This document shows, in pieces, positions 32,159-50,642 of a stretch of 64,000 nucleotides of DNA. The position numbers and the translations under genes are program-made. The notes under the pieces are model-generated. The model saw only the letters and a program-made list of their open reading frames with translations, did no database searches and was not told the DNA's origin. How positions within the stretch are numbered: position 1 is the stretch's first letter; each line of letters begins with the position of its first letter. The DNA is from Ascochyta rabiei (taxonomy: Eukaryota; Ascomycota; Dothideomycetes; Pleosporales; Didymellaceae): NCBI RefSeq assembly GCF_004011695.2, contig NC_082405.1, forward strand, positions 2,417,001 through 2,481,000. The letters are read 5' to 3'.

Positions 32159-32163
32159 GAAAG

Positions 32164-32236
32164 AGCCCGACGTGGGGCTCGAACCCACAACCTTGAGATT
32201 AAGAGTCTCACGCGCTACCGATTGTGCCAGCCGGGC
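32164..32236 (-). tRNA. tRNA-Lys (anticodon CTT)
   Basis: 73 nt, no intron. Acceptor strands GCCCGGC and GTCGGGC pair with one G-U. The anticodon stem TGAGA/TCTCA encloses CTCTTAA with anticodon CTT. The T arm GTGGG/CCCAC encloses TTCGAGC. A-box and B-box match consensus. Decodes AAG. Confidence 0.95.
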
Positions 32237-50165: not shown

Positions 50166-50495
50166 CTGCAGTTTAATTGATAAACTGAACAGCATCATGC
50201 AAGTGACTTTCAGGATCTCAGGTCTTTTACAAGCTAAGGCTTGCGAGGCTGGGAGCGTTCTACGTGCTTGCAGTAGTGTGGGATATACAGTCATTCCGGA
50301 TAAGCAGACGGTTGTCCAAGACCAGTTGTCTAGTGCGACTCGACCACCGATCTCGGCACACAGTCCAAGCTAGTGCCCAAAATGTACACTTTCCGTGTGG
50401 CCTGCACACTGCGAATAGACCCCTTCAGCATCTATAAATTTACCGGATTATATATAATTTAATGGACAGGACTTTCATCAACAGCTACAAAGCCT
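50166..50495. other. Short intergenic segment
   Basis: Contains the open tail of the phosphoesterase remnant (to about 50373) and AT-rich sequence upstream of the tRNA gene. Confidence 0.4.
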
Positions 50496-50635
50496 GGTCT
50501 TGTGGTGTAAGTTTAAACATCAAACCTTCAGCCTTCGAGCTCCAACTAACAATCATCCAGCTAGTGGTATGATTCTCGCTTAGGGTACCTAAGTAAACGT
50601 GCGAGAGGCCCCGCGTTCGAGTCGCGGCAAGACCC
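50496..50635 (+). tRNA. tRNA-Pro (anticodon AGG) with an mRNA-type intron in the D-arm and a 14-nt anticodon-loop intron
   Basis: Three blocks join to a 72-nt tRNA. Block 1, GGTCTTGTGGT, is 50496-50506; block 2 is 50561-50585 (starts CTAGTGGTATGATTC, ends CTTAGGG); block 3 is 50600-50635. The 5' acceptor strand GGTCTTG pairs perfectly with CAAGACC at 50628-50634. The anticodon stem is CTCGC/GCGAG with loop TTAGGGT, and the T arm is CCGCG/CGCGG around TTCGAGT. The 14-nt intron contains CCTAAG, complementary to the anticodon region CTTAGG, as in canonical nuclear tRNA introns. The other 54 nt (50507-50560) begin GTAAGT, contain ACTAAC and end CAG, and interrupt the A-box after two D-stem bases. 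Confidence 0.8.
50507..50560 (+). other. Spliceosomal-looking intron inside the tRNA-Pro gene
   Basis: 54 nt with a perfect donor GTAAGT, branch-like ACTAAC about a dozen bases from the end, and acceptor CCAG. Length and signals equal those of the protein-gene introns in this window (47-72 nt). Removing it restores the conserved tRNA-Pro D-arm GTCTAGTGGTATGATTC. Confidence 0.75.
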
Positions 50636-50636
50636 A

Positions 50637-50642
50637 TTTTTT
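50637..50642 (+). terminator. Pol III terminator of tRNA-Pro
   Basis: T6 run starting two bases after the tRNA 3' end. Confidence 0.75.

Follow-up and report, generated by a model that had tools for sequence, protein, structure and literature searches.

The splicing of tRNA has been described as needing a machine other than the one that splices mRNA. The closest precedent for a spliceosomal intron in a gene transcribed by RNA polymerase III (Pol III) is that of the U6 snRNA genes of Schizosaccharomyces, in which an mRNA-type intron is said to have been described by Tani and Ohshima (1989, 1991) and in which, to go by the title of Frendewey et al. (1990), a B-box match reportedly lies within the intron. 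By their titles, Bhattacharya et al. (2000) and Takahashi et al. (1993) reportedly concern spliceosomal introns in ascomycete rDNA and the U2 snRNA gene, which are likewise mRNA-type introns in fungal non-coding RNA genes; rDNA and U2 snRNA genes make other RNAs and have no tRNA-type internal Pol III promoter to preserve. In fission yeast the U6 precursor is transcribed by Pol III and then spliced, as set out in the available part of PMC10484740. That a Pol III gene can carry a spliceosomal intron is therefore already known from U6, an RNA that is itself part of the spliceosome and whose one intron lies near the catalytic nucleotides.

The window, by which is meant the whole 64,000-nt stretch of Ascochyta rabiei contig NC_082405.1 that was analysed, contains a tRNA-Pro(AGG) gene that shares with U6 a spliceosomal-type intron in what is probably a Pol III gene, and elsewhere in the same genome the likeness extends to a B-box-like sequence within the intron. 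The difference from U6 is that the hosts here are tRNA genes for seven amino acids, interrupted at several sites and mostly carrying an endonuclease-type intron as well. With respect to the canonical introns of nuclear tRNA genes, which sit between positions 37 and 38 and are removed by the tRNA endonuclease, most of the interrupted genes have one of these too, whereas the extra introns lie elsewhere, have GT-AG ends and branch motifs, and lack a full bulge-helix-bulge. What looks new is that tRNA genes are the hosts, that so many of them are affected, that whole decoding sets would depend on them and that two splicing machines would work on one RNA. No report of spliceosomal-type introns in tRNA genes was found in the open-licence literature, outside which lie bioRxiv preprints and most subscription papers, and such an absence is not proof.

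The tRNA-Pro(AGG) gene of the window

Read directly from the sequence, the gene lies on the plus strand as three exons (50496-50506, 50561-50585 and 50600-50635), and its features, with those that flank it, are as follows.

50447..50463, plus strand: AT-rich TATA-like element ATTATATATAATTTAAT, 33-49 nt 5' of the tRNA start
50496..50506, plus strand: tRNA-Pro(AGG) exon 1 GGTCTTGTGGT, positions 1-11, identical in 4/4 copies
50503..50513, plus strand: A-box-like TGGTGTAAGTT, made up jointly by exon 1 and the 5' splice site; before splicing it matches the TRGYNNAR core at 8/8
50507..50560, plus strand: spliceosomal-type intron 1, 54 nt, at tRNA position 11/12, in 4/4 AGG copies
50507..50512, plus strand: 5' splice site GTAAGT of intron 1, the form seen in 18/28 GT-AG insertions
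50546..50550, plus strand: branch-site-like CTAAC of intron 1, its adenosine at 50549, 11 nt from the intron end
50558..50560, plus strand: 3' splice site CAG of intron 1 (among the 28, CAG 22 and TAG 6)
50561..50585, plus strand: exon 2, positions 12-37, anticodon AGG, from sequence reading and ARAGORN on the spliced gene
50586..50599, plus strand: canonical 14-nt tRNA intron at 37/38, endonuclease type, i(36,14) by ARAGORN on the spliced gene
50600..50635, plus strand: exon 3, positions 38-73, from sequence reading and ARAGORN on the spliced gene
50615..50623, plus strand: B box GTTCGAGTC, intact, in exon 3, from sequence reading and the B-box pattern
50637..50642, plus strand: T6 run, Pol III terminator-like; T runs also follow the other three AGG copies

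The two introns of this gene are of different kinds, in that intron 1 lies at 11/12, away from the 37/38 position of canonical tRNA introns, and the 14-nt intron lies exactly there. The preliminary description had pointed to an acceptor stem paired at 7/7 positions and to an anticodon complement within the 14-nt intron, and reading of the sequence bears out both: exon 1 pairs with the 3' strand over all seven positions, and CCTAAG inside the intron is complementary to CTTAGG of the anticodon loop. The valid tRNA that was expected once 50507-50560 is removed was also obtained, since ARAGORN, given the gene with this stretch deleted, calls tRNA-Pro(agg), starting at nucleotide 1 and containing a 14-nt intron. 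For the unspliced gene there is no ARAGORN report, either in the window scan or with introns of up to 150 nt allowed (locus L011), and no Rfam match at the gathering threshold. Elsewhere in the window, at 32163-32236 on the minus strand, there is an uninterrupted tRNA-Lys(CTT), which is the sole tRNA reported there by ARAGORN and Rfam and one of six equal-score matches in the genome tRNA covariance search. The window also encodes a PGAP1 protein, 92% identical to Macroventuria anomochaeta and 91% to a Didymella sp., in keeping with an origin in the Didymellaceae.

Interrupted tRNA genes across the genome

A search of the 41-Mb genome for further tRNA-Pro(AGG) genes yielded four loci on four contigs, the window gene included, and all four have the intron at 11/12. 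Without its spliceosomal-type insertions the gene is identical at 86/86 positions in the four copies (72 exonic positions and 14 of the ordinary intron), while insertion 1 retains between copies only 30-45 identical columns of 54 aligned, so that 9-24 differ. The copies on contigs C2 and C16 have a second insertion at positions 26/27, where GATT is followed by GTAAGT...CCTAACAT...CAG or TAG and then by CTCGC. The window insertion is not a matter of chance, because three further loci, on three other contigs, repeat its exons and its insertion site while the insertions themselves have diverged; constraint on the exons together with drift between fixed splice motifs is the pattern that a spliced intron would leave.

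The D-arm split by a spliceosomal-type intron that had been claimed for the window gene is thus upheld, and the same kind of interruption is found not in one locus but in 25 of the 104 nuclear tRNA loci catalogued, with 30 insertions in all. Among the loci found, those for Pro (9/9), Gln (5/5), Arg-ACG (6/6) and Ala-CGC (2/2) are all interrupted, together with one each for Met, Ser and Leu. By anticodon they comprise four Pro(AGG), two Pro(CGG), three Pro(TGG), four Gln(CTG), one Gln(TTG), two Ala(CGC), six Arg(ACG), one Met, one Ser(GCT) and one Leu(CAG). Sequence reading places the insertions at no fewer than eight sites, namely 10/11, 11/12 and 15/16, the D loop, about 24/25, and 26/27 or 27/28, together with 34/35, which splits the anticodon, and 55/56, which falls in the T loop. 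The spliceosomal-type and the canonical intron of Pro(CGG) leave an exon of just three nucleotides, GGG, between them.

The catalogue was assembled from a tRNA covariance search, B-box plus T-run patterns, a D-arm pattern, ARAGORN and similarity search, and its 104 loci, one of which is a cut-off tRNA-Lys, are a partial catalogue rather than a census. The Rfam tRNA search of the genome gave at least 62 matches, with 63 of 1588 first-look candidates scored; 19 of the 62 were dropped as they lie on contig C23, which was read as mitochondrial from its tRNA set. The B-box patterns required a T run 12-18 nt downstream, and the matches listed were about 100 of 107 in one search and about 100, reaching into contig C6, in another. 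Of one set of 60 loci, 15 were dropped for a T stem scoring below 4/5, with the exception of L134, which was kept as a Val gene by ARAGORN; within the 60, L130 and L133 have no B-box match, L133 being an Asp gene by ARAGORN. Genes split at the B box can be found by similarity or by a site-specific pattern alone, because the B-box patterns need an intact B box, and a site-specific pattern for such genes gave nine places, the six Arg loci and three with nothing tRNA-like in the match. Among the loci fetched no gene was recognised for His, Cys, Asn, Phe, Ile(TAT), Leu(AAG, CAA, TAG) or Val(TAC), and these genes may be interrupted at the B box and thus have been missed. Published counts stand at 125 tRNAs in A. 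rabiei ArD2 (PMC4835772) and at means of 129-139 in pea pathogens (PMC9410150), and the available parts of these two papers make no mention of such introns.

A number of other tRNA-like features were seen along the way. About 110 nt 3' of an Arg(ACG) gene on contig C5 near 350182 (L138/L113) there is a stray tRNA-like 3' end, GTTCGACCCCTAGTTAGGTCA, followed by a T run, which is perhaps a remnant copy. On the same contig a degenerate tRNA-like T arm near 644740, minus strand (L018), ends about 3 nt before Pro(CGG), and the two may form a two-tRNA transcript, while the tRNA-Lys(CTT) at C5:855139-855197 (L074) ends at about position 53, is followed by a T run and is probably a truncated pseudogene. 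At C4:381982 (L049) the anticodon TGC (Ala) is set in a body otherwise like the tRNA-Thr(TGT) of L047, a possible anticodon shift.

The effect of removing the insertions was followed in 23 of the 25 genes, that is, all except the Pro(TGG) gene on C8 and the first Pro(TGG) gene on C9, and the same 23 were used in the promoter and upstream tests. Spliced in silico, 20/23 give a full-length tRNA of the right isotype with ARAGORN, the window gene among them, and the remaining three (Met and two Arg) give a full-length tRNA for which another anticodon or type is called. Before removal of the insertions, ARAGORN reports nothing for 16 of these genes and miscalls six; in the Ser gene it gets the anticodon right but leaves out exon 1. 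Since a tRNA-Ser can be called there even with the upstream exon ignored, this gene makes the weakest case. The genome was also searched for uninterrupted counterparts at up to three mismatches. The Pro 5' half occurs uninterrupted nowhere, its three places all being inside interrupted genes; the Gln 5' half likewise occurs nowhere, its two places both being intron-exon junctions; and the Arg-ACG T arm has 0 places. Assembly gaps and copies with more than three mismatches aside, there is no intact Pro, Gln or Arg(ACG) copy, and the insertions must therefore be removed. The fungus seems unable to do without its interrupted Pro, Gln and Arg(ACG) genes.

Splice signals and internal promoters

Of the 30 insertions, 28 have ends of the GT-AG type and are 48-68 nt long, with a median of 53 nt. 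The 5' ends of these 28 read GTAAGT (18), GTACGT (4), GTAGGC (2), GTAAGC (2), GTACGC (1) and GTAAGA (1), and the 3' ends CAG (22) or TAG (6). In 25/28 a branch-like motif, [CT]T[AGT]A[CT], places its adenosine 10-11 nt before the 3' end; the exceptions are one Gln(CTG) and the Met insertion, where the distances are 12 nt and 14 nt, and one Pro(CGG), which has none. Gln(CTG) introns have CTAAT or CTGAC as their version of this motif. The two insertions outside the set of 28, which failed the GT-AG parse, are those of Pro(TGG) at L021 (C8:920803) and L023 (C9:807210), both placed after TATGA, 50 nt long and with GTAAGT and GCTAAC; at the point where the tRNA fold requires the intron to stop they have TG and AT, which makes them possible cases of non-AG acceptors. 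A 5' splice site of the form GTNNG is nevertheless found in all 30 (as GTAAG, GTACG or GTAGG) and YAG in 28/30, these two being the exceptions. The features of U2-type introns, GTNNG, YAG and a branch motif at a suitable distance, are thus present in the insertions overall, which to judge by their motifs resemble ordinary fungal mRNA introns. Six other stretches of the window picked out as candidate introns by the same kind of motifs are 49-65 nt long. The Gln(CTG) introns (L097-L100) have in their 5' part a common block, CCCTGATCAA, which in 3/4 copies includes the B-box-like GATCAATTC, the exonic B box being intact.

What happens to an internal promoter when its gene is split at these sites? 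The preliminary description held that the intron splits the A box, and this stands as far as the split at 11/12 is concerned; the split does not simply abolish the box, however, as the GTAAGT that follows position 11 restores the TRGYNNAR core. At the 11/12 junction, where TRGY is followed by GTAA, the core is 8/8 in the four Pro(AGG) genes and Gln(TTG) and 7/8 in the four Gln(CTG) genes, and the final G of the A box is missing, as in TGGTGTAAGTT of the window gene. The core is only partly kept in the 10/11 class, at 7/8 in Leu and 6/8 in Ser. Over the 23 genes it is 8/8 in 17, 7/8 in five and 6/8 in one, with the 3' G lost in the split classes.

The B box is exonic in the 19 non-Arg interrupted genes and intronic in the six Arg genes. 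In all six Arg-ACG loci the insertion separates T55 from C56 and so cuts through the centre of the B box, and all six introns contain GTTCRANTCC, the B-box core, overlapping the start of the branch motif, where 0/22 of the other GT-AG introns have it and shuffling gives a chance expectation of 0.0004 per intron. Looser cores do occur in the 22 non-Arg introns (GTTCRANNC in two, GWTCRANNC in five). Elsewhere the Arg-ACG introns have diverged, except at the splice sites and in a short CCA block adjoining the B box; they are of common descent and so do not represent six independent events, and conservation of the intronic B box against this diverged background points to a function.

Upstream, a TATA or AT-rich match lies at -65 to -25 in 21/23 interrupted genes, a figure obtained with a loose expression and without a background control. 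The evidence for Pol III from T runs and B boxes is in part circular, because most loci were selected through both. Avoidance of TTTT was considered as a further sign of Pol III and set aside: TTTT occurs in 0/27 introns (shuffle P about 0.02), but none of the six candidate window introns contains it either, and its absence therefore does not discriminate.

Proposed removal, gain and meaning of the introns

The features described above make it very probable that Pol III precursors are spliced first by the spliceosome and then by the tRNA endonuclease. The spliceosome would remove the introns of 48-68 nt first from the Pol III tRNA precursor, since the endonuclease measures the tRNA body, which cannot fold before the D or T arm has been made continuous, and the tRNA endonuclease and ligase would then take out the 37/38 intron. 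The internal Pol III promoter would survive intron gain at 11/12 with the 5' splice site supplying most of the A box, and in the six Arg genes with a split exonic B box the intron would bring its own.

The preliminary description had left a choice between the spliceosome, a switch to Pol II and silence; the first is now favoured, silence is disfavoured, and so, less firmly, is Pol II. Both of the disfavoured alternatives could draw on the A box being partly lost in the genes split at 11/12 and at 10/11. Were the interrupted copies dead pseudogenes, other genes would have to make these tRNAs, yet the nine Pro, five Gln and six Arg-ACG loci are all interrupted, no intact halves exist at up to three mismatches, and 86/86 positions are conserved in the four AGG loci against 9-24 differing columns of 54 in insertion 1; with every locus of these families found interrupted and the AGG exons conserved, silence is scarcely credible. 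A capped Pol II transcript, spliced like mRNA and with the tRNA then processed out of it, would explain easy access by the spliceosome. Against it stand the T run near the 3' end of the AGG copies, the TATA-like elements of 21/23 genes by the loose expression, and B boxes either intact in exons (19 non-Arg genes) or replaced in introns (six Arg genes), and these render Pol II transcription quite unlikely; in addition, the Pol III-made U6 precursor of fission yeast is spliced according to the available part of PMC10484740.

There is also the question of whether the tRNA splicing endonuclease could remove these ectopic introns by itself at a bulge-helix-bulge, as in Cyanidioschyzon merolae and archaea. 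C. merolae has multiple tRNA introns of 11-69 nt that interrupt A and B boxes (PMC3978253, in the part available), and archaeal non-canonical tRNA introns occur at many positions (PMC4090602, likewise in part). The C. merolae and nucleomorph introns treated in the available parts of these two sources are like the present ones in interrupting A and B boxes and in numbering several per gene. They are unlike them in that those of C. merolae are attributed to bulge-helix-bulge motifs and the splicing endonuclease, with spliceosomal motifs not described in the part of PMC3978253 available. A 4-bp central helix, without both flanking helices, is seen at the junctions of three insertions among the 27 tested, namely Met and the second intron of each Ala gene. 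By the strict test, which asks for the 4-bp central helix and both flanking helices, a full bulge-helix-bulge is present in 0/27, random cuts giving 0.4%, and it is because of this result that removal by the endonuclease is disfavoured; moreover, an enzyme that reads structure does not need the conserved GTAAGT, CTAAC and YAG. This route is accordingly held to be highly improbable, and splicing by the spliceosome ahead of the endonuclease is the reading retained here.

Traces of how the introns arrived may be preserved in pairs of gene copies. The Leu(CAG) gene on C12, once spliced, is identical over 82 nt to an uninterrupted copy on C4, and the spliced Met gene on C17 differs by one base over the 106-nt gene from an uninterrupted copy on C10, a difference read as falling in the canonical intron. 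The two Ala(CGC) copies differ in that an intron at 15/16 is present in one and absent from the other. Because the canonical intron is still there in the uninterrupted Met copy, it is unlikely that this copy lost its other intron through the copying of a mature tRNA; the simpler reading would be that the C17 copy gained one. An introner origin, as had been hinted for the window intron, finds no such backing: introner-like elements have many near-identical copies in unrelated genes, whereas the window locus matches the four AGG loci of its own family only, and introns of different families share stretches of just 12-16 nt, in six pairs. Of the 30 insertions, those of the AGG locus in the window and of the Arg locus on C5 were compared with the whole genome.

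The wider reading, which is likely though less so than the order of splicing proposed above, is that the spliceosome is obligatory in tRNA biogenesis in this fungus, such that decoding of Pro, Gln and the CGU/CGC Arg codons would need two unrelated splicing machines in turn. Introns would have been gained or kept where the Pol III boxes could be rebuilt from splice signals or moved into the intron, and they would make up a third class of nuclear tRNA intron, probably common to related Pleosporales. Several questions thereby become testable. Can spliceosomes act on uncapped Pol III transcripts beyond U6, and how are two splicing pathways ordered on one RNA? How do internal promoters evolve, for instance when a B box comes to lie inside an intron? 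Intron gain itself can be approached through the Leu and Met copies with and without the intron, which are natural before-and-after pairs. In practical terms, entire isoacceptor families can escape tRNA-finding programs in genomes of this kind. If the introns are indeed spliced, they represent an exception to the tRNA-splicing rule that covers all of the Pro and Gln tRNA genes found in one genome.
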